A DNA stretch of 64,000 nt from Mansonella perstans (Eukaryota; Nematoda; Chromadorea; Rhabditida; Onchocercidae), in NCBI GenBank assembly GCA_037074765.1, contig JBAMDO010000017.1, positions 186,001 to 250,000 on the forward strand. The letters are read 5' to 3'. Positions 2,490 to 58,175 of the stretch are shown here, in pieces. Position numbers and translations under genes: made by a program. Every line of letters starts with the position of its first letter. Within the stretch, counting starts at the first letter, position 1. Under the pieces are notes generated by a model that searched no databases, was not told where the DNA came from, and saw only the letters and a list, made by a program, of their open reading frames with translations.

Positions 2490-3063
2490 AAATCATACAA
2501 ATCAGCACACAATTTGTGCTATTGTTACATTTTCATTGATTTCGTCAAGCAATCCTCAAATTTGAGAACGGTAATAATACGATGATTGAATCCAACAAAT
2601 GATCGATTTGAGAACCATATTACATCGATCCGCTTGTGATTCAAATAATACTAAATGAATTAATGATACCATTACAATAAACTAATTAATACGAAGCTTC
2701 CGATAGTTTGGGATAAATCAGAAAGATTATCCTTCAAGAGAAAATTGAACTTATAATGAATAGCGTCAATCTTACTAATAGCTAAACATTGAACAATAGA
2801 AATAAATTCTTCATAAAAGTAATGCTAACCACTAAACAATGGCTGAAAAAAGCCCGACAAAAACTTCCAAAATAATATGAATTACAAATAAAACAACTGA
2901 CCACAACTTCAAAAATTTGAGATAGTTTAGTAGCACTTTCTTTTTAAGTTCCTACGATCTAATTTAACATTTAAAAGAAATCAACTCGACTGGTATGACA
3001 TTTTTGAACTAAGACATTGGCCAAAAAATCGAAACATTATTCATATTAAGAAAAGTTTCATTC

Positions 3064-3094
<31 letters not shown>

Positions 3095-4190
3095 AAACAA
3101 CAAGAAAATAAAATAAGACAAAACTGATTAAAAAAAAAAATCATCAAATAAAACGAACAATACATGAAAAACTTTGGGCACAGAGATCAATGGTTTGAAA
3201 ATCGTTTTGAATTCTAGAAGTCTGCAGAAATAATATCTTAGCAAACTGTAAAGCTCCGAACAATTTAGGTGCGAAATCCTGAATAATTCTTATCTTTCAT
3301 TTCAACAAAATTTTTTGGAACAAAAACTTTGAAATTTGAAATACAATCAGCACTGATAATATCAGTATGGAATACAAATTGAAGCATGACTGTTATTGTA
3401 TCAATAACACAGCCTAAACGATAGCTGAACAAAAATAAGAATAAAAACCATAATCTGAAGTGAAAACGAAATAACAGCAATATTGATAAGAGATAATCAA
3501 ACAAAAGAGATAAATAAATAATGTCTAATATATAGCTTCACGATCCTATATGAATAAATTAATACGGCGTAAAGAAATCATAATGGAATCTTGAAAAAAG
3601 CTTTAATAAGTTTGGACAATGTGAGCAGTTTCAGAAATTAGAAAAGAAAGCAAGCTTTGCAGGAAATGTTTTGAAGTAACGTAAAATGCTGCGGAGATCA
3701 TTCACATACTCTGCAAATTCATGGAGAGTATTGAAGTTGTGAAGAAAAATTATATAATAAAGAAAAATCGTCCAAAATATATTAAATTAACAATCGTTAT
3801 TGCAAGTTGGAAAGTCTTGGTAAATAAAGAGAAAATTGCAGCAAGCAATCGGATTTTCAAAATTAATTTTCAGCAGTACTGTCTGGATATAGAAGATTTA
3901 ATAAAAACAACAAAAATGAAAATGTAGCACATATCGCTAAAAGTCGCTAAAAAATAATCCCCTATAGCAAAATTTTCAAAAATTTTATAGCTTATGAAAA
4001 ATTTAAAAATAAAGGAATTCAGTTTTCTTTAATTCTGGCTTGATTTCCGTAATTTGCAGTTGATGCAGAAAAAGATCTCATCTCCATCCAGTCGATCAAC
4101 TTGCCATTCTTTAGTTCTCAATAAGGCCAAGATATTACTATACGCAAAAATTGAATTTACAAATACGAAAAGAAAATATCTATACATTGC
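2490..4190. other. Intergenic, AT-rich, no gene seen
   Basis: Between the RALGAPB start and the end of the next minus-strand gene I see no exon with good splice sites. It holds an A-run of about 27 at 3065-3092 and scattered short ORFs (for example 3265-3504 minus, 3721-3927 plus) with composition typical of AT-rich noise. Confidence 0.5.
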
Positions 4191-4194
4191 CAAT

Positions 4195-7095
4195 TTATCC
4201 ACCGAATGCCACTTTATCTTTGCAGGATGCATGTGTAATCTGCAAATAATGCATCCTCCCAGAATCGCGCAATTCCCTTTTCCGCTCTTCCTCAAACAAC
4301 ATCAAACAAATTCTCATTGTTTTGTCGATTTCAAATTCTGCAACAATTTCGGTATTAAATGACAAATTCTGCTGAAAGAAAAAAAACGCGCAACTAAAAC
4401 CAAAAAAAAAAGGTTGCAAAAAAAGTGTTAAAGCGACTTTAGTTCATAAAATATAAATAAAGATCTTGTCGTTAAACTTCTATGTATAAAAATATTCAAA
4501 AACTCTTTGAAAGAATAAATTTATACCATCGAATCTGCAGTTTTCCATTAGATGACGTGCATGTAAAAGTGCTAATTCCCTATCAAATAAGGATGTGCCA
4601 GTGCCAGGAACGAACGACAAAATCTGAAATAAAATAACAGCAGTAAAATATTTTCATAAATCTGCAAATTCTGAAAATCAATCTGATACTGGATTTTTAT
4701 AACACATGATCAAAACAGCAATAACTGTCGAAGACTATCCAGTACTTTTAATACGCATTCATAATAAGTTATTTATCATAATAATCTTTTTCAGAACCGT
4801 ACAATGTAAAAAAGTTTCAGTGAAAAAAATGTCTCAGGGATTCGATTTATGCAGAAAAAAATTTTAAATAATTTGCAGAAAATAATTTAATTTAACTTAC
4901 ATCATTACAATAATCCAATGCATGGATAAAATTAGAGGCCTCCCGTTTGGTATGAACTACATAATACAGAAGCAAAACAGAGTAACACATCAACGTGATA
5001 CCGACTAAATGGTGTCTCAATCCATCAACTACATTCACATTTCGTCGTTTTAAATGGTTCGTTTTCAGATTCTCAAAATTAGGATCCTGAAATTAATTCC
5101 AAAGTGAAAATTTCCGAAATAATCATAAAAAAGAAGTAACCTCACAATTATAGATGAAGCAGTCCATAATCGACCCAAAAAAGTTCAGCTTTGATATTTG
5201 TGAACGATGTGTATGTGTAGCTTGAACGAAATTAAAGCATATGTTTCAAACGCAATCAGGTGAACAATGAAATTATTATCGGTGATAAAGACTTGTTGAA
5301 ACGCTGAGTGAAATAAGTGGTAAAAACATAAGTAAGTAAAACAACAGACATCTTTCTTAGCATGAATCATGGACAATTAAACGGATAATTATGAAAGCAA
5401 AGATAATTGTGAATAAAAAAAAAAAAAATCACCGACATATCGTCATTATCACCAGGCATATGTTCACCATCACAAGCACCAGATTGCGCATGCTCCCAGA
5501 ATATTTTTCCCTCAGCTCTTGCATGCTCTGTACGAGCCAGTTCTGAAAATGCTTTTCAAAAACTTGTAATTTTTTTTTTTAAAATAATACAGAAAATATT
5601 CTCAAAGTAGAAGTGAACAAGTTTTAACAAAGACTTTTTTAATAATCCTATCTGCATAAAAATAAATCCGTTACGAATTTCAAACTATCTAATCTTTTCA
5701 GAAAATAACATAACAATGATAGAATTGATGCTTTTGTAACTGTTTTTTCTATTCAATGATTGTATAAACTACTTGAACTCAAACTTAGGTAAACAGCTTC
5801 CGATTTTTCTAGTCATAACGATCCATGAAATAAACCAGAGGTATTAAAAGGCAACAAAGGATTCGACAGAACTTTTAGAAGTTTGTAAAATCAAAAGTGC
5901 AGTACAAATAAAAAATTGCTTCTATTATTCAGAATGACTGAATAAAGTTTCAAAAAGCTTTAAAACTATTTATATAAAGATCAATAAAATGAGCATACTG
6001 TTATTACCACTAGGCATTAAAGAATTTGTCGTCTATGACAAAGCAAATAACTTTGCAACTGAGATTTGATAGCTGTGCAGTTGATCTTAATACAATAAAT
6101 CTTCCAGAAAAAAAAAAAAAAAGACAATTTGCAATACTTGATGTATTTCTTAGGTCCAAAGTATAATATTCAATGGGAACATAGTTTAGTTTTGATTTAA
6201 AAAAAAAATGAATATAGCTAATACCTTCAAAAAGATCATTTGGAAACAACTCAATAACACGTACAGCGAGTACACCACGTCGAAGCGCATGGACGGCTAA
6301 TCGAAAAGTATGTCTATCTAGCGCCAATCTGTAAAAAAGAAAGATAAGAGAGGAATTAATCAGATTATTTACAATTCTTATCAGTTAAATTGGGACAACA
6401 TTTGCACTATTAAGTAAATGCAATAGAGTATCTGGAAATGCTAGAAGGAAGATGAATGAAAGCTTCAAGGATCAAGCAGAAATGATATTTAAATCACTGC
6501 AGTAAGAACTATGACCGCTAATTTAATCAATTAGATCAATTAAACATGCAATCAATTCAAATAATCAATTAAATCAATTAAAATCAATTAAATCAATTAA
6601 TAATCAATAATCAATTAAACATGACAGATGAAAGCATAGCTAAGTCTCGTTTATATGGTAGTAGGTGAATAATTTTCACAATTTTCGAGATAAAGCTATG
6701 TACACTCTGAAAGAACAAAATGAAAGCAAAATATCGAATAATTAAGCATAAATGAAAGTATTTTTAACCAAACTTCATAATGAAAAATTTATACTAACAT
6801 AGCTTAGTAAAGTTATGTGAACGTGAAAACATTAATGATTGTTTCCTTGTGAAAAAATAAACATAAAATTAAATTTTGTAGATAATTAATTGTAAGAATA
6901 GAAATCAACAAATAATAATTTGCTCACTCGGCATCCTCTTTTGGGCCAGAAAATAAGCCGATTGCTTCCAGAATACATTTATGTGCTTCCTCTAACAGAT
7001 GGCAACCTTGTGATACAGTTAGATCAACATCATCTGCAGCATTATTATCATTGTTTCCATTCATATTCATTACTATCCGAGAAAATTTGCTATCT
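4195..7095 (-). CDS. Unidentified multi-exon protein, likely conserved
   Basis: I do not recognise this protein. Six exons join cleanly by phase: 7095-6928, 6328-6225, 5542-5433, 5086-4901, 4623-4527 and a probable last exon 4337-4195 ending in TAA. A first ATG inside the 7095 exon (MNMNGNNDN...) could be the start, or an earlier exon may exist. Visible stretches include GCHLLEEAHKCILEAIGLF, LDRHTFRLAVHALRRGVLAV and NVVDGLRHHLVGITLMCYS followed by a hydrophobic VLLLYYVV. The whole looks alpha-helical with heptad-like leucines and one possible short membrane or buried helix. Arginine-rich, evenly conserved-looking exons with textbook TTTCAG acceptors argue for a real gene. It sits about 1.7 kb upstream of RALGAPB in the same orientation. 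The last exon is the least certain part. Confidence 0.65.
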
Positions 7096-8036: not shown

Positions 8037-8236
8037 GTCGTTGCACTTGTCGACATGCAAATCGTGGAAAGGCAATGAGGTGTGCATGTTTGTTGCACAT
8101 TGAAGTAGAATATATGAAAGGGTTATCATTCATCTCTTGCAAACCTATTGATAAGCAATTTACATAAACTGATAGATTCATCGTCCAAATTATCCAACCA
8201 CTCCATTTCAGTGAATCAGAAGTCCCTATAATTGCT

Positions 8237-8470
8237 CAAATCGTGAATCAGAAGTGTCGAATTGCTCGAAGCGTGAATCAAAAGTCTCTAGCAATTGCTC
8301 AAATCGTGAATCAGAAGTCTCTAGCAATTGCTCAAATCGTGAATCAGAAGTCTCTAGCAATTGCTCAAATCGTGAATCAGAAGTCTCTAGCAATTGCTCA
8401 AATCGTGAATCAGAAGTCTCTAGCAATTGCTCAAATCGTGAATCGAAATTCCCTAGAATTGCTCAAATCT
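8237..8470. repeat. 33-bp minisatellite, about 7 copies
   Basis: The unit starts GTGAATCAGAAGTCTCTAGC and ends AATTGCTCAAATC. The central copies are identical and the outer ones are diverged (for example at 8245 and 8435), as expected of an array growing from the middle. The period is a multiple of three, so frames stay open on both strands (an 11-residue repeat in each). I treat these as repeat artefacts unless transcripts show otherwise. Confidence 0.95.
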
Positions 8471-9701: not shown

Positions 9702-10884
9702 CTGAAACCGTTCTTGATGAATAATTTTGCAATTTTTAACAATCATCGTTATCTATCACCCGGAAAAAATTTATAAAAAATTTCAAAAAAATTGCAAAAT
9801 TTCCACTGTACTGATTTGGCAAAGCAATTATTACATGGCATATTAACAGAATAAATTATACTTTTGCAAATATATTGGCAAAAATGCGAAAGCATCTAAT
9901 TCGATATTGATTCATCAGATGATTCTATGTTGATTCATCAAGTTCATTCATCAAATGATTCATCAAATTCATTAATCAAATGATTCATCAAATCAAATAG
10001 TCTAAAGCTAGTGAGCTCATTATTTACCAATAAGAATTTTACGTAACAATTAAAGAAGTCCCAGAATCATAATTTCTTGTTTGAGGTTTTCATCCAATTT
10101 CTAAACAAATTTCTACTGATCTCGTTACCAAATGGTGTTCTTACATGAACCGAATGCAACTGCTATCCTGTTATAGTAGTTTGATTTGCCGGATTTGCGT
10201 GGTAAAAAAAGTCGAAGTTGTAATTCACATTGCGGAAACAAAAATGACAAATTATTGAATGACAAGATTTTCATTTTCACGTGGAAAATCATTAGGTCTT
10301 GCTGTTTGATCACTAAGAACAAAATAAAAATAAATGATTCCTGAAACACAGAAAATTTTTTCAGTTCTTTTTAAAGGATAAACATAACTTCGATATTCGA
10401 ATTTCAGCCTTTTATTTACCGTACAGACAACTTTTAAAACTTTACAAGATTTAAAGCCCAGGAACCGGTTTCATGCTGGAATGCATGTCAGAATATCGTT
10501 TTTGAGAATTGTTAATAATAAAATGTTACGACTGTCACTACTCTTTTACTTATCAAAGATTAAATAGGCATAAATCAATAATTAATCGATCAAAATTGTC
10601 AATTTTTAGAGACTTTGAAGTCAAAAAATTATTTTCAGTCACAAATTATTGTTTATTATAAATTACAAAACAACTGTAAAAAAATATGGAACAAAAGGTT
10701 CCAACTAGATGGTCGTCTTATTTTTTTTTCCGGTTTTACCGATTACATCTTACGGGATTTCTGCTGTGCTGACAAACGTGTACATCCTGCTCGTTGCCTA
10801 AAATGAATTTTTTTTTTTGATTTCAAAAAACTAACAAATATCTTCTGCCGATAAAAAATTTATTGGTAAAGAACAGGACTTAAA

Positions 10885-11098: not shown

Positions 11099-14000
11099 CT
11101 ATAAAGCGGTGACACTTTGAAAGGTTGCCCATGGCCAGGAATGATCCAGTCCGCTAAACATATGATCAAATTCGAGTTTTGCCTATTGATCAGTGGATTC
11201 CAAACACTTTCATCTCGATCTACACTTGAATCTGTCTGAAGTTGCTTTTTAATTATTTGTTCTTATGTTGGATAATACAAGATATAAAGAGTTTCTTTCA
11301 TTACTGCCAAATGAACTCAAAGTGATGATAACAGCAATGAACAAAATTAACTGAAATTTGAAATAAAATTAACTAATTATTTTCCTACTTTGTTGAACTA
11401 ATTTTTTTTCTTTTTAAGCTTTTTGAGCGAAGCGAGTGCTAAGTAGATGTGCAATGAAATACTTTCTTTGGTGGGTTTGAAAAGTCTTTGTAAAAAGTTT
11501 TAATTCCAGAAAATCTCTAAAGATGTCAGTCATAGAATTCAATTAATATCCAGGCAGTGACTTTGCATGCGTAATATATTATCGGTGAAGCGGAAATTCG
11601 ATTACTTCGCCGTTTTAATGAAGAGCTAACCCTGTTGAAAATGCAATTCTCTGTCGGTATTAAATCGCCAACAATAGCTACTGTCCCATACCCCTTCACG
11701 TCATAAACCAGAACACTAAGACTTTGTTGTGTAGGACCGGGAGTTTTCCAAACTTCTACATTTTCCGTTAGTTTACGGTAAGGTCTCTAAAAATGAAAAT
11801 TGAGTTATATTAAGGAAAACTTATACTATCTCCTTAACTGGAGCGATGTTGCTTACATCTGAAATATTTTCAAACTACTCATTATATTTAATTTATTTTT
11901 TGTGTAAAAGAACGGAAAATTAAAATTTAAATATCTCATTGATTCTATTTTTCCATATTGTATCATATTCTACTGCATAGTCATTTAGGTCATTTAAATT
12001 CAATGTAAATTCTTCTCTTTGTTTCGAAATTTCATTTCAAGTAAACGAGATTTAGTTGAATGATAAGAAAAAACAAACATTTTTAAGTTCGCTGATAGTA
12101 GCATGTTGTCCTACATATTCCATCGTATGGAAAAGTATTGGTTTCAGGGAAAAAAGGTTAAGGTTACCCGCATAACTTGGATGTCCACTTGTTATTACAA
12201 TTACAGCAATTTCATCCATGTAATTTATTTCTTTCGAAAGACCTGAAAGAGATTCTAGGTGGTTTTGAATTTTTATATTAAATTATTGTCTTGTCCAAAC
12301 ATTTGGGCTGGAATCCAATGATCTAAACTTTACTTAGATTGCGATAACAACTAATCAAAATATAAACTCTTTGACAGGTATGCCATCAATCAAAACTTTT
12401 CCACTCGAAAATATAAGACTTTCTGACATTGTGGAAGTTTATGGGCCCGAATACTTCTTCCTGAGTGAATTTAGAACGGTCGAAGACTATCTTATAACCA
12501 CAATATGTAGTTTGCGAAGAGTGAGAGATTTAATAATCAAAATATGCTTTAGTGAAAGCTGGAGTCACAATCCTGTTTCTTTGCATGATACTTCCGGAAA
12601 AATTTTCTGAAGGATTCATCTAGTGATTTTCATTTAGTGCCCCAATTAATTTTTACTTTTTCATATTTTAATTAGTACTTATTTTCGTTTTACTTGTTGC
12701 TTACTGATAGTCATCGCTTTCCAAAATGCATTTTTCAAAAATTACAATTTGATATTATTCACTTATTAAATTATAAATATATGTATAAATATGGGTTGAA
12801 ATGATATAAAAATTTGTAATAATCATGCTTTAAAATTACTTTGCTTTAATCAAAGATGTCTGAAAGTTACAATTTCGCTTTACGTTTTTGCTTTATCAAA
12901 GTATTTCTTAGCTTACCAAATTTTGTTTCGTTGCTTTGTGAATTTAATTTTTTCAAAATATCTCATTGCTAACTGTCCTTTGCAAAAAATGCGTATAGGA
13001 TAAACATGTATAATGAAATACATATGGTTTTAAATATTTGGTTGGAATTTATTAACAAATACTTAAAAATTAGGTAAATTTAAAGGATTTTAAATCTAAA
13101 TGGAATGAAGGTAGACGCAATACGTCTTTTAAACTATGCACAACCTTACTTTCTGACTTTTTATTTGACATTTAGCTATCACGACACTCTTATAGGAAAG
13201 TTTGCAGGACTCAAAACTTACGTAATTGTAAGATTAGCAGATTTACAAACGTAGCCCAGCATAAGTCTAAGAAAGTTTGTCATCCATTCTCTTTACTTTT
13301 TTCTTTTTCCCTCACATCGCTAATAACTCCAATAACGAGAATTCCATTTAAATTCTTCCCAAAGATTTCAATGGATTTTAGAAACCTTTGATAAATTACT
13401 TCGGCATTTCTCTTTAGACATCCGTCGAATGAAATGCAATTATTATATTATTAAATTCTCTGCTACTCGAAATTATTTGCTTATATAAAGCTGCTTTTTT
13501 TTCAATTGTCAAATTTGACGAATCTAAGAACGAAAAAGTTGAAAAAACTTTTGCTCTCCGACCATGAGTTCTTCACGAAAATTGCCTATCTTGCAAAGCC
13601 CGTGGATTGAAATTTATCTTCTGAAACTTAATTGAGTAGAGAATGCTTACTCACATTCAAGGATTGTTTTTGACTATAGTGAAAGGAAAAAGAAGCGAAT
13701 AATTTGAAGCTCAAAAAACTCGGAAAAATTTATAGATACCTTGCAGCAACGTCTCGGTATCAGCAGCAGATCCGGTATCCACTAATATCCGGTAACCCTG
13801 ATCGTTAATAAGAGTAACTGTTCCAACAATGAGCATTTGCAAGTCCATCAATTTCTTGATATTACCAACTTGAATTAAAGACACGGATGTCAGATGGTCG
13901 GCAGGTAAAGAAGAAGTTGGGAAAAACGGTAGTGTTGTTTGAGATGATTTTCTTAGATCGCCAAATTTAGATGCATTGCGATTTACGATTTCTTGCTGTT

Positions 14001-15778
14001 CACTTTTAAGCCTGAAATTAGCAATTTTTTTCAGATCCATTAAAAAATTTAATAAGAAGCCTTACTCCAATAATCAAAAATATAATCATAAATTATATTT
14101 GAACGTTTTTAGAAACATTTTAGAAGTATCCCAAATATATTTATTGCGACATTTTTAGGACAGTGCATAATATCATTCAATGAATATTTAAATCATCTCC
14201 ATCCAAACTTCTGGAAGTCTCAAGAGCAGTAGCCTCACAATTATGATAATCCTTAAAGTCAGTACTTCACAGAAGATCCATCGCAAGTTAATACCGCTTA
14301 TTGTCAAGATTCTGTTTGATCTCTCTTTCTATCGATCACCACCTTTTTCGTCTAACATATTAGCCTATGCATATCGATGAAGAAAAAGTTCAAAAAATTT
14401 GTCTGGTCAAATTTCTTGGAATTTTAAATAAATTCGCTGTCCAGATATTGCCTTATTTTATAATAATTTCTCTTTATTGAAATGGATAATCTTTTTCAGA
14501 CAAGTTGCAGTTTCTAGCTTTCCAGCCTAAATTGACTAATAATTTCACATTAGTTAGGTATATTTTAGGACAGTAAAGTGTTTTAAAACAATAAACCGTA
14601 TAGTAGTAGCAGGGCATTTGAAAATGATAATTTTTTACAGTTTTCATCAGTTTGTTATTTTGAAGTCTTTGAGCACAGCGTGTAAATGATTCAAAACTAA
14701 ATTTACTGATTACTTACTGGCCAAAATTACCAATAAAATTAAAAGAAAGGCTCAATTTCGTAGTAACTTAACGATATTAAGGAAAATTTTGTTAGAAGCG
14801 AGCCAATCTTGTCAATTACTAGCAGTAGAATGTTTTAAACATTTGTGTTTTTTTTTTTTTTTTAAGTATTTTTTTTTTTTTTTTAAGTACTTACTTGATT
14901 TTGTTCATAGTACCTTCAGATGAAAGCTCTTTACTATCGGTATCTTCGATAGATTCTGTTGTTGGTAATTTAGAAAACAGTGTTGTAGGCGCAATTGTCG
15001 CCCCGGAAGGTACAAGGTTGTGTCCACTTCCATCCCACGGAATTCTGTACAGTGGTTTTCTACAGAATGTAACTTAAACCAAGATAACAAAAAACGTTTA
15101 ATCATATTATCAGAGGAAATCTTCTGAACTATGATTAGGTGCTTAGATCTGATACTTTTAAGGAAGAGAATGATAATTAATAGATTCATTTATTTAATTG
15201 ATTGTTCCGGTGGAATTAAGTAATTGAAAAATACTGCGTTTAAAGCACTTTATTTTATCATATACCAGAATAGTAAAAAAATTATTACCTCTCTCTGATG
15301 TACCAGGGTGATTGACGGTTGGGAACTGTAGATGACCAGATATGTTCTCGAGTTGTATTCCTTTTCTCACTCGATAAAGGCGCTGCTAAAAAGGGTTTGA
15401 GGTTGAATTTTAAATATAAAACTTGACACGAGAAACAATGCAGTCAATAGAATTAAAGCCAATACTATAAATCAATTAACTTTGATTAGTCAATCAACAG
15501 ACATATAAACAAAAAACACGACGACAAATTTTCAGATTCAAAATTGTTGAAAATTGGAAAAATCAAAAATTAGAGATTTTTTATAAAATTCGAACTTGTT
15601 AACTGCTTCACTTTTATACTAATAATCGGTTTATTACGCATGTCATGGCAGCATATTGATCGGCCAAGTACCGGGCTTAAATCGCAGACGAAACCAGCTG
15701 GGCATTCTCCAACTGCTGTTGGCTTACAGTAACTGTATTCGCCAGATAAGATTAATGGGTCGGCATCGAAAGAACAAA
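11099..15778 (-). CDS. Lustrin-like Cys module + degenerate metallo-beta-lactamase fold (MBLAC1/SWIP-10-like)
   Basis: Seven exons join in phase: 15778-15638, 15385-15289, 15059-14895, 14011-13740, 12242-12079, 11786-11631, 11235-11099; both ends are missing. The first exon encodes a lustrin/EB-type cysteine module (C...C...CPAGFVC...CC), implying a secreted or extracellular N-terminus. A Ser/Thr-rich linker follows. From exon 4 the MBL fold matches MBLAC1: VGTVTLINDQGYRILVDTG, then VITSGHPSYAGNLNLF, VEVWKTPGPTQQSLSVLV, VAIVGDL and ADWIIPGHGQPF. The usual THxHxDH motif reads TSGHPSY and the TPGH motif reads TPGP, so four metal ligands are replaced; the GD aspartate and the final PGHG histidine remain. 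Intact relatives are metal-dependent hydrolases. Here hydrolysis is unlikely and a binding or scaffold role is inferred. The last exon, with stop, probably lies at 10.8-11.0 kb. Confidence 0.82.
12379..12553 (+). CDS. Possible VWA-like exon nested in an intron
   Basis: An open plus-strand stretch follows the acceptor TTTGACAG at 12378. It encodes GMPSIKTFPLENIRLSDIV and EYFFLSEFRTVEDYLITTIC, which resembles the C-terminal end of a von Willebrand A domain (aspartate-phenylalanine-rich strand then helix ending in Cys). A donor (A|GTGAAAG) could end it near 12553. It lies in the intron between MBL-fold exons at 13740 and 12242, on the opposite strand. No partner exons were found with confidence. 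Confidence 0.3.
12880..12990. repeat. Dispersed repeat copy A
   Basis: A stretch of about 110 bp (GTTTTTGCTTTATCAAAGTA ... TTTCAAAATATCTC) closely resembles 22552-22660. The two copies differ by scattered substitutions, so this looks like an old dispersed repeat. Confidence 0.65.
13290..13500 (-). pseudogene. Broken coding-like stretch, possible VWA fragment
   Basis: Two overlapping minus-strand open stretches in different frames: one ends EFNNIIIAFHSTDV then stop, the other continues CLKRNAEVIYQRFLKSIEIF ... GILVIGVISD. They read as one protein interrupted by a frame change at about 13420. The pattern (hydrophobic strand with D, helix, GILVIGVISD strand) is reminiscent of a VWA or Rossmann core. 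It could be a real gene with an unseen splice, a decayed fragment, or chance. Confidence 0.25.
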
Positions 15779-16743: not shown

Positions 16744-17036
16744 TCAAATTTTTCCATATCTATTAAATGATTGGATAAAATCAAAGATCTTAGTCATACC
16801 ATTTCTTTCAGCAATTTTAATTCCATTACGTGAAATCATTGGTGAGTTGGTTGTTTTGACTAATTGTGCTTTCGGTTCAAGACCAAAAATTTTGAGTATA
16901 GTTGCAGCGATATCATTGTTGCCAGACATAGATGAGATTAAATCGTCAGTTATGGGTTGTGGTAAAGAATTACGATTTGTTTCAAACCATCGCTTCAAAC
17001 GATCACTTTTATCATCTATTGAATATTGTCCGCGAA
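16744..17036 (-). CDS. Terminal exon of unidentified gene
   Basis: Minus-strand open exon from acceptor TTTTTAG at 17037 to a stop at 16744. It encodes RGQYSIDDKSDRLKRWFETN, then ITDDLISSMSGNNDIAATIL and KIFGLEPKAQLV. I do not recognise a domain. Codon usage and the acceptor argue for coding. It may be the 3' end of the gene represented by exons at 19.1-20.1 kb, but the exons between were not resolved. Confidence 0.45.
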
Positions 17037-18989
17037 CTAAAAATGAATCATTTTCAACGATGTTTTTGGTTTTCTTGCTGAATGAAACTTTTGAAAGAAA
17101 TGATTGAATGAATGTTTGTCCTCACATTCTTGAAATAAATGTAAGTCTTCTAAAAATGTTTTTACTGGGTACTTCAAAGCAGCGTCACTTCAATAAAGTA
17201 AAACAAAACTCCTAAGCCTATCATCTAAATTCAAATATGCAAATGTGAGAATGAGTTCTTCCATCTATGAATCGTCCGATAAGAGGCCAATTTTGTTTAT
17301 AAGAATGAATATTTTAGTTTATCATGCAAAGGAACTTTAAGTTTTGACAAGTTTATTGTTTTATTGTAGAAGCTTAATTTTAATATGGTAAATAAAGGTG
17401 CAGTATGTGAAAAGGAATAATTAATAAGGAAAAATAATAACCTGATAATAATGCAAAGGATATAAGTAGAAAAAATACAGTTGTTGAGTAACAAAACATT
17501 TTAAGTCGAAGCATCAAAAATTTTACACAAGCATGAATATGCGCAATGAATTTTTAACAACGTTGCAAACGTGAGCAGAAAGTTCAAATTTGTTAAAGAA
17601 ATTGAGAGTGAAGTAGTATTGGCTGGTTAAATACTATTGCTGTTACAGTTTCTTACTTACAATTACGCAGTACAAATATACTAATGGACATAGGTAGGGA
17701 TAATGGGACTAACTTGTTTACCTAGCTCTTTTCCACCTCACTATACCGGTAAATGATTAATGAGCTATTTCTCCTCCCCCTCTTAGAATTTCCTCTTAGA
17801 ATCTCTTAAGTCACGAATAGAGTTCATATTTTAAAAACACGGAAGTAAAATGCAGACGTGGGAAAGAATTGACATGGTCATTTCTAATGTGAATAATGAA
17901 AGAATAAAATTGATGCATTAAATAAAATCAAACTAGATGACATTCATCACTTCATTTATATTAATTATTTGTTATTTCTGGAAAATTCTAAACCATTCAT
18001 TCAAATTTTAACAAAATATATTATTTTAGCTTGTTTACTTTTATAGTTCGTACATTTCTTCTTGCTCTCTAAATATGTCTACCACCGGATTAATACGAAT
18101 GGTAAATAGTAGATGATCCAGCCGGTAACGCGGTACAAATTCTTTTTCAGATGAAATATTAAAAGAAGTAATAAATGTTAACTGACTGATTTTCAGAAGG
18201 CGAAATTAATAAAACAACCGATGTGAAAGTGAAATAAACATTGAACCTGAATGACGTAAAGAGTGTTAGTAAGTGGAATTTTACGAGTTTAATGAATCTT
18301 AATAAAGTTAAATGTGTATCAGGATAGAATAAAAAAAATCATTAACTGATTTTCCGAAATTTAAAATCAGATTCGGAGTGAAAATCTAAATGTGCGTACG
18401 AATTCTTCGAATCTAAGAAATAATAATGAGAATTTTATTACGCAATTATACATATTAAAATGATTCATCAAGTAAAAGAACGGTTGGCAAGAAGTGGTTT
18501 TCTGATAAACCTTCCTTAACGGTCACATATCAAGACTAATTTTGTTCCTTACCTAGGAAGTATAAGATCAGCTATTCCTGAAATAGATGACAACACCAAT
18601 GAAGAGAATCGTTCCAACGGCATGAAATAATTATCTAAACTTGCTAAATCTTTTTAAACTGCCTTATTGCTCAATTAAGTTCAACTGTGCATGTCGCAAA
18701 TTGTCAAGTTTTAAAAATTATGCAACTTTTCTTAATTTTCTGTGCTTTTCTAAGTTTTCCAACTTCCAAAAGCGAATAATTGTGTTTTACAGACTTATTC
18801 GAGAATGGTAAGTGATAAATCGGTTATTTCGAGCTACTTGCCATCTCTTCTCATTTCGAAAGTCCTGTTGCGAAGAACAAAACTTCAGGAAAACTTTCTC
18901 TCTCGAGATTTCTTTGATTGATTAGACATTTTTTCAATCCATTACGAAACAAAGTCGAAATAGCAACAACTAAAAAAATATATATATAT

Positions 18990-40066: not shown

Positions 40067-40262
40067 CTGTAATAACGGAAGAAAAATTAAATAGATTCTA
40101 AATGAATTAAGATAGATGAAAATAAAAATAAATACTTCAATTAAAAAAGTGTGGCAACTTACACAATGAAATAATTTTATTCAGAAATAAGAGCGCCAAA
40201 ATAAAACAAATACCAGAATTCACAATCTCACATGAAGCGAGAAAAGGAATAGAGGAAGGACA

Positions 40263-40478
40263 ATGAATCAGCAGAACATGATTCAATGTTAGAGTTATCC
40301 GAAAATATCTGGAGGATACTGAATCAGCAGGACATGATTCAATGTTAGAGTTATCCGAAAATATCTGGAGGATACTGAATCAGCAGAACATGATTCAATG
40401 TTAGAGTTATCCGAAAATATCTAGAGGATACTGAATCAGCAGAACACGATTCAATGCTAGAGTTATCCAACAATATCT
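40263..40478. repeat. 56-bp tandem repeat, about 4 copies
   Basis: The unit begins GAATCAGCAGAACATGATTC and continues AATGTTAGAGTTATCCGAAA. The last copy is diverged. It lies 200-400 bp upstream of the first HORMA exon I can place, so it is in its promoter or first intron. Confidence 0.9.
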
Positions 40479-40769
40479 GGACATGAGCACAAAAATAAAA
40501 TATATGTACGAACGAATAGAAGTTAGCAAAAAATGGTGTACCGATTGCATCTGCTTCCCATCTTCGCTCATCTTTGAAAAAGCTGATTTGACAATTTATC
40601 TAAATTTTAAACTTTTTAGAGATTAAATAATTAGGGTAAGCCAAGCAACTCAAAATTTTATTTTTCTTTATAAACTTTTTTAGAAAATTAAAAAAATTTG
40701 CATGAAAAAAGGCCACAAAAAGACAAATAAACATTCTAGCGACTACTATCAATGCGTCGCTACCACGTC

Positions 40770-56688: not shown

Positions 56689-56979
56689 GATCCTTGAGAA
56701 AAATGGGACACTTAAAAGAAATCAAAATTAATGAATAGTATGAGATAATGAGTAAAATAATCCTCTTCAAACATCCATCTGGAGTTGCATGTATTACAAA
56801 CTAATTGTAAGGTCATTTAAATGAAAGTAAAGTTATTTTAGATTTTTATGAAGTTATCGAGTAGACGCTGAATTGGCAAAATCAATCAGTTATATTGCAC
56901 TTTTTTCAGATATTTAATTCATAAATTATAATACAAAAACACACAACATAACTTTTGTTATATTAGTAAGGATTACTAT

Positions 56980-57338
56980 GTGGTGACCACTGGAAAACTT
57001 GAAGACGGAATACTAGTGAGGATTGGTGTGGTGACCACTGGAAGACTTGAAGACGGAATACTAGTGAGGATTGGTGGGTGACCACTGGAAGACTTGAAGA
57101 CGGAATACTAGTGAGGATTGGTGTGGTGACCACTGGAAGACTTGAAGACGGAATACTAGTGAGGATTGTTGTGGTGACCACTGGAAGACTTGAAGACGGA
57201 ATACTAGTGAGGATTGGTGTGGTGACCACTGGAAGACTTGAAGACGGAATACTAGTGAGGATTGGTGTGGTGACCACTGGAAGACTTGAAGATGGAATAC
57301 TAGTGAGGATTGTTGTGGTGACCACTGGAAGACTTGAA
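56980..57338. repeat. 48-bp tandem repeat, about 7.5 copies
   Basis: The unit runs GTGGTGACCACTGGAAGACT TGAAGACGGAATACTAGTGA GGATTGGT. Copies are almost identical, differing by GGT/GTT and one 1-bp deletion. Each unit carries the near-palindrome GTGGTGACCAC and the palindrome ACTAGT. The period is a multiple of three, so long frames stay open on both strands; I do not call these genes. The array begins about 290 bp upstream of the POLR1A start codon. Confidence 0.97.
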
Positions 57339-58175
57339 GAGTCACACGGAATAGGTAACTCCGTGACAATGTGTTTCTTTTTTCAGAAGGCAGTATCCAC
57401 TTTTTACTTCGACTATCTCTTTGTATGCCAAAGTTATCCCACTATTACATAATTGCAAATTTATAACATCACTTTCCTCCCACTCCAAAGTATAAAAAAG
57501 ATAAAAAAAAGAACAAACGTTTAACTGTATAAAATCTAAATACATATCTTAGGAATGATCTATTGCACATTTATCACACTAATCGTAACATAATATAAAC
57601 TCATGATTTTAGCAAACCATTTGTTAACTTTGAGACTTTGACATAGGTTTGAAAGATTGGACGAATGAGATTGTAGTTTAGCATTGTGGTGTAGTTGTTT
57701 GCTGTCATTTTAATAGTGTGGGGAATTGGATCACTAAATTATAAAATACTGATAATTTTATGACAAAGATATGATGAGAATAGGTCATTTTTTGACAAAA
57801 GAAGATTTGATAGAAATTAAAGAAGAGCTTATTATTTTGAACTTTGACCGTATTTTGAACACAGATGTAATTGAGCCAATTTCTGCCGAATTGCTTTATA
57901 GTTTGGCGATAAGTAACGATACGATATGACAAGATCAGTTGTGCAAAACATATAATTTACCGATTCTAATGATAATGCGAAATGAAAAATCACGAAAAAT
58001 ACTAGGATACACGTAGTTTTGATATGTAGAAATTTCTAATGAAGAAACAATGAGACTGTAACTGATTCTAATATTGATACTATATTTGAATGCTAGTAAT
58101 TTTTGTGTGATAGGTTTAGAGCTTTATTAATTATGGAATTGTTAAGGAAGATGAAAGGGGACAACACATATTGAA

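Follow-up and report, generated by a model that had tools for sequence, protein, structure and literature searches.

The 64,000-nucleotide stretch of Mansonella perstans DNA considered here (contig JBAMDO010000017.1, positions 186,001 to 250,000; hereafter the window), taken from a genome of 75.7 Mb in 539 contigs, carries on its minus strand a gene of ten exons (17499-10743). Its product of 507 amino acids is predicted to join a lustrin-like cysteine module to a metallo-β-lactamase (MBL)-fold domain from which four of the seven metal ligands have been lost. Judged by its sequence, the gene is a filarial member of an uncharacterised C23H3.9-type family of nematode proteins. In our opinion, this conserved filarial protein probably acts by binding and not by catalysis, because the metal-binding residues have been lost in filarial worms while the fold has been kept.

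All seven exons that the preliminary description had placed between 15778 and 11099 are present, with GT/AG ends, in-phase joins and no stop codon. The extent of 11099..15778 is correct for these seven and too short for the gene, three coding exons of which lie outside it: exon 1 with the signal peptide, exon 2, also N-terminal, and exon 10, which closes the coding sequence with its stop. All three were added by comparison with Brugia and Dirofilaria proteins. Exons 1 and 10 are short and are placed by phase and by weak tblastn matches. The frame is open throughout and ends in a single stop. The transcript would thus be spliced from the following exons:

17442..17499, minus strand: exon 1, start ATG and signal peptide (MFCYSTTVFFLLISFALLS); in phase, weak tblastn match to the Brugia N-terminus (E 0.097), hydrophobic window at residue 1
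16800..17036, minus strand: exon 2, N-terminal region; Brugia tblastn E 2.2e-27, phases fit
15596..15778, minus strand: exon 3, lustrin-like cysteine module; profile, tblastn and phase; alternative donor 15638
15289..15385, minus strand: exon 4, linker; GT/AG ends and phase, tblastn
14895..15059, minus strand: exon 5, Ser/Thr-rich linker; GT/AG ends and phase, tblastn
13740..14011, minus strand: exon 6, linker end and first MBL part (VDTGS); GT/AG ends and phase, alignment, tblastn
12079..12242, minus strand: exon 7, MBL motif II, here TSGHPSY; GT/AG ends and phase, alignment
11631..11786, minus strand: exon 8, MBL motifs III (TPGP) and IV (GD); GT/AG ends and phase, alignment
11099..11235, minus strand: exon 9, MBL motif V (PGHG); GT/AG ends and phase, alignment
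10743..10797, minus strand: exon 10, C-terminal RQRAGCTR segment and stop codon; phase, Brugia tblastn E 0.038

The exon-3 donor at 15596 (GTTCGA) gives a product collinear with the Brugia protein, and the alternative donor at 15638 (GTAATA) likewise preserves the frame.

The predicted product begins with a signal peptide and a short N-terminal region; these are followed by a single lustrin-like cysteine module, by a linker rich in Ser and Thr and then by an MBL-fold domain of the MBLAC1 type. The signal peptide was called by eye and hydropathy only; the N-terminal hydrophobic window, together with the open, in-phase frame, bears out the earlier view of a single protein, here with a signal peptide, and the product would be secreted. 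The MBL domain passes its profile cut-off (Lactamase_B, 23.9 bits against 22.7), which the lustrin-like module does not (Lustrin_cystein PF14625, 19.3 bits against a curated cut-off of 27; the D. immitis protein scores 26.9), so that a profile check confirms only the first of the two. The six cysteines of the module (residues 100, 116, 124, 130, 141 and 142) nevertheless follow a pattern that aligns with eight orthologues and is common to orthologues matching the PF14625 profile. A Pfam scan at E<=1 gave only these two domains and, in particular, no beta-CASP domain; an NCBIfam scan gave weak matches only, far below their cut-offs.

The reading of the metal-binding motifs in the preliminary description was accurate: THxHxDH is represented by TSGHPSY and TPGH by TPGP, while GD and PGHG are intact. 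In a 55-row alignment, the seven ligands H116, H118, D120, H121, H196, D221 and H263 correspond to S, H, S, Y, P, D and H, and the stated loss of four ligands holds. In human MBLAC1, one metal is bound by H116, H118, H196 and D221 and the other by D120, H121, D221 and H263 (PMC6303110). The codons concerned, read from the sequence and the alignment, are:

12187..12189, minus strand: AGT, Ser at the H116 position
12181..12183, minus strand: CAT, His at the H118 position (kept)
12175..12177, minus strand: AGT, Ser at the D120 position
12172..12174, minus strand: TAT, Tyr at the H121 position
11733..11735, minus strand: CCT, Pro at the H196 position
11664..11666, minus strand: GAT, Asp at the D221 position (kept)
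11131..11133, minus strand: CAT, His at the H263 position (kept)

One word-based search found 58 homologues of the window protein at E<=1e-3 (best 1.2e-166), 54 with nematode names and four unnamed, and none named for another phylum. The eleven best rows, from filariae and Setaria, are 59-68% identical across 96-99% of the query, and C. elegans P0025 is 55% identical across 57% of it. A tree of 55 rows was built without the seven ligand columns from 53 of the 76 proteins of two homologue searches and two sequences of this genome; the tree tool flagged long branches meeting. Isoforms, near-duplicates, fragments and distant matches make up the 23 excluded rows (P0006, P0010, P0013, P0039, P0041, P0044, P0045, P0048, P0050, P0052-P0055, P0058, P0062, P0065, P0067, P0068, P0070, P0073-P0076). 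The tree separates 43 C23H3.9-type rows from 12 MBLAC1-type rows, their sister group, at 100/100. The window gene falls with C. elegans P0025, within a group of ten filarial rows that is supported at 98/94 (starred). Rows without an organism name are P0020 and P0043 among the C23H3.9-type and P0056, P0057 and P0072 among the MBLAC1-type. The label C23H3.9 is the name of P0033 (Aphelenchus), and C23H3.8 that of P0050 (C. elegans), whose C-terminal sequence is identical to that of P0025; the latter we take to be C. elegans C23H3.9.

The fold is of the MBLAC1 type, as had been proposed, but the gene itself belongs with the C23H3.9-type rows. Orthology to SWIP-10/MBLAC1 was considered and rejected on the tree position and on the presence of a separate, ligand-complete gene on contig C12 of the same genome; the searches did not bring up C. 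elegans SWIP-10, which stands outside the tree. The MBL part of the C12 gene (~C12:213040-214370; L017 ~3040-4370), one of the MBLAC1-type rows, shares 84% identity with an Elaeophora protein that bears the name MBLAC1 and has the motifs THGHPDH, TPGH, GD and PGHG, i.e., all seven ligands. A GTTCG 5' splice site apparently occurs in both genes, at 15595 in the window and at L017 ~4234 in the C12 gene, as judged from homologue alignment only. Further MBL matches lie on contigs C428, C537, C185 and C539, and lustrin-type exons (at least 42 matches in the genome) are clustered on contigs C18, C69, C88, C134 and C180.

The distribution of ligands across the tree suggests that they were lost in steps. 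All seven are present in 12/12 MBLAC1-type rows, and D120 is absent from 43/43 C23H3.9-type rows. Among the 31 C23H3.9-type rows outside the spirurine lineage (filariae, Setaria and Thelazia), H116 is kept in 30, H118 in 27, H121 in 28, H196 in 29, D221 in 31 and H263 in 30, and six of the seven ligands remain in 24 rows. The corresponding counts for the 12 spirurine rows are 0, 8, 9, 0, 12 and 11. The loss of H116 and H196 is thus shared by every spirurine row, whereas H121Y is narrow, being found in the window gene, D. immitis and an O. flexuosa fragment (P0041, outside the tree counts) that shares TSGHPSY with the window gene. Minimum numbers of letter changes on the tree are 2 for H116, 4 for H118, 6 for D120, 6 for H121, 7 for H196, 0 for D221 and 2 for H263. 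Orthologues with more ligands, a point that the preliminary description had set against its own reading, do exist, but only outside the spirurine rows examined. Its coupling of the fusion to a dead hydrolase does not stand: the fusion is found across nematodes, and most non-spirurine C23H3.9-type rows retain six ligands. An assembly error, or alternative exons restoring HxHxDH, for either of which no evidence was found, is an exceedingly improbable source of the window motifs: all 11 other spirurine species of the tree have Ser at H116 and a residue other than His at H196, and there is no further MBL exon between exons 6 and 7 among the listed Brugia and Dirofilaria tblastn matches (20 pieces per query at most).

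Ligands are also missing elsewhere. Anisakis has N at H116, Y at H121 and Q at H196; Aphelenchoides bicaudatus has F at H121, Q at H196 and V at H263; three Caenorhabditis rows have S at H118, Oesophagostomum has P at H118 and Mesorhabditis V at H121. Independent loss in Anisakis is only partly borne out: with Plectus omitted, Anisakis clusters with three ascaridoid rows (100/97), but an approximately unbiased (AU) test did not reject its union with the spirurines (p 0.106), and part of the domain is missing from the Anisakis gene model. The distant row P0058 (Aphelenchoides besseyi), outside the tree counts, has ligand changes of its own.

Another line of evidence is the conservation of the protein around the lost ligands, selection being gauged here through regional protein identity. 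In a set of nine sequences (the window model built with the 15638 donor, plus eight others, two Brugia species among them), pairs are on average 85% identical over the lustrin part, 84% over the MBL part, without a single gapped column, and 55% over the linker, where 27 of 163 columns are gapped on average. Entropy within the spirurines peaks at the H196 column (1.83; the next of the 202 usable columns has 1.79), while the T, P and G that precede it are fixed in the spirurine rows shown. Outside the ligands, 111 columns are conserved at >=85% in the other 31 rows; their retention in spirurines averages 82.5%, and 65 of them are fully retained. Because H196 is highly variable while most surrounding columns are retained, the metal site appears to have been released and the fold held by purifying selection. 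Decay of the gene after loss of function, which could account for the four missing ligands, for the loss of the conserved Asp after TPGHTxx in 12/12 spirurine rows and for the lustrin score under the Pfam cut-off, is in our view very unlikely given the open ten-exon frame and the contrast between the MBL part and the linker. Nor is there a sign of faster evolution in the lineage: the mean root-to-tip distance is 0.41 for spirurines vs 0.66 for other nematodes, figures that depend on a long outgroup branch. The earlier view that the fold motifs are kept without sign of decay is thereby upheld.

Taken as a whole, the explanation that we consider likely is that of a family member that lost its ligands stepwise and became a non-hydrolytic extracellular binding or scaffold module. 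The fusion of an MBLAC1-like domain with the cysteine module would date from a nematode ancestor, and D120, a ligand of the second metal, is absent throughout the C23H3.9-type family. The spirurine lineage would then have lost the first-metal ligands H116 and H196 together with the neighbouring conserved Asp, the rest being mostly conserved. The putative pseudoenzyme would hold no metal and perform no catalysis, its MBL domain serving outside the cell through its fold, and the lustrin module may attach the protein to extracellular matrix or to partners. An extracellular binding or matrix role is plausible, because the signal peptide, the cysteine module and the flexible linker fit it; attachment is the weakest step, because removal of the lustrin domains of MLT-11 causes no overt phenotype (PMC13181417). 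The oligomer state, too, may have been altered by ligand loss, because the active site of MBLAC1 adjoins the dimer interface and an active-site variant is mainly monomeric (PMC6303110). A more specific version has the MBLAC1 branch moved outside the cell by the lustrin-like fusion, already without D120, with further ligands lost separately in spirurines, Anisakis, Aphelenchoides bicaudatus, Caenorhabditis, Oesophagostomum and Mesorhabditis and a metal-free binding module left in filariae; we hold it tentatively, at a little short of even.

Several observations weigh against the proposed binding module. H118, D221 and H263 persist in the window protein, and D221 is kept in 43/43 and H263 in 41/43 C23H3.9-type rows, so that the protein may retain a weak or single-metal site. 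In spirurines, Glu is newly fixed at one column (12/12) and common at another (10/12), and Tyr occurs at two further columns in 11/12. Sixteen of the 111 conserved non-ligand columns are retained in only a minority of spirurine rows (under half). The clade formed by the 12 spirurine rows is supported at 96/79 (97/79 without Plectus), below the tool's star, and the long-branch warning applies to the same tree. A predicted fold is available for the D. immitis orthologue; its predicted local distance difference test (pLDDT) values are 68, 76, 56 and 69 just past motif II (residues 371-410), the model of a six-ligand Steinernema control being surer there (79, 76, 78 and 68; residues 311-350). A residual or re-wired metal enzyme, in which H118, D221 and H263, perhaps with others, hold metal and do chemistry, would account for the persistence of D221 and H263 and for the many six-ligand relatives. 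We nevertheless consider it unlikely. The kept set varies, with D at H118 in Brugia and Wuchereria, N there in Setaria, N at H121 and Y at H263 in Thelazia, and P, S, R or F at H196 in spirurines; the newly fixed residues include no His, Cys or Asp, which leaves only Glu and Tyr at a few columns as candidates.

The closest solved fold and sequence are those of MBLAC1/SWIP-10 (human structure 4V0H), the sister group, in which all seven ligands are retained, as is also reported for both proteins (PMC5891035), as opposed to three in the window protein. C. elegans P0025 has the same module order and likewise no D120, but H118 is the only other ligand that it has lost, with H116, H121, H196, D221 and H263 retained. 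Some MBL-fold proteins whose metal motif has gone serve as assembly subunits: INTS9, with three of four motif-II ligands lost, and CPSF100, regarded as inactive (PMC7980224, PMC4819959), resemble the window protein in that the fold persists despite loss of HxHxDH ligands. They differ in having a beta-CASP domain of their own and in partnering active nucleases in RNA-processing complexes. MLT-11 shares the signal sequence and lustrin domains and has Kunitz and thyroglobulin domains in place of the MBL domain; deletion of its three lustrin domains is the case referred to above (PMC13181417). Anisakis lustrin-Kunitz peptides are also unlike the window protein (PMC5763927). In the literature searched, outside which most subscription papers lie, there was no mention of C23H3.9, Bm2328, LOAG_04103, WUBG_02647, C23H3.8 or F53B1.6, and no paper combining lustrin, metallo-β-lactamase and nematode, or MBL domain, Brugia and secretome.

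On the more specific version given above, the family would grade naturally from metalloenzyme to pseudoenzyme, with a ligand-complete paralogue alongside it in the genome. If the proposed binding module is real, an MBL-fold enzyme can here be followed step by step as it turns into a secreted non-enzyme, since six-ligand relatives, three-ligand relatives and the paralogue can be compared. Because no other phylum is named among the 58 matches, four of them unnamed, this may be a conserved secreted protein of filariae with an architecture restricted to nematodes. The C. elegans gene makes the role of the protein testable.

The intron between exons 6 and 7 (12243-13739) deserves separate mention. 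At its position, gene models of other nematodes (P0022, P0031, P0036, P0046, P0047, P0049, P0050 and P0051) contain multi-pass transmembrane sequence, which joins the start of exon 7 directly in the last six and nearby in P0022 and P0031. Such models hint at a gene nested at the locus, or at a membrane-bound variant carrying only half of the MBL domain, in those nematodes. No such exons were found in the window with pieces of five proteins, or in the whole genome with the Thelazia and Ascaris proteins, although such fast-diverging segments (Thelazia vs Toxocara, 32%) could be missed; in a database search, the transmembrane part of the Thelazia protein matched only itself. Because transmembrane exons lie between the MBL halves in those models, the locus may yield additional products. 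The same exons would suit the view that the lustrin-like and MBL exons are two adjacent genes merged by annotation, a reading even less probable to us than decay of the gene: both Pfam domains are matched in one protein in at least 29 of 36 rows, in identical order in the sequences inspected, and phases fit throughout the window gene.

Away from the gene, the window contains three tandem repeats. A 33-bp unit (8211-8469, 8 copies) has two open frames on the plus strand and one on the minus strand, a 56-bp unit is repeated at 40257-40481 (4 copies, 94% match), and part of a 48-bp repeat (56979-57340, 7.6 copies, 97% match) encodes a Ser/Pro/Thr-rich repeat on the minus strand.
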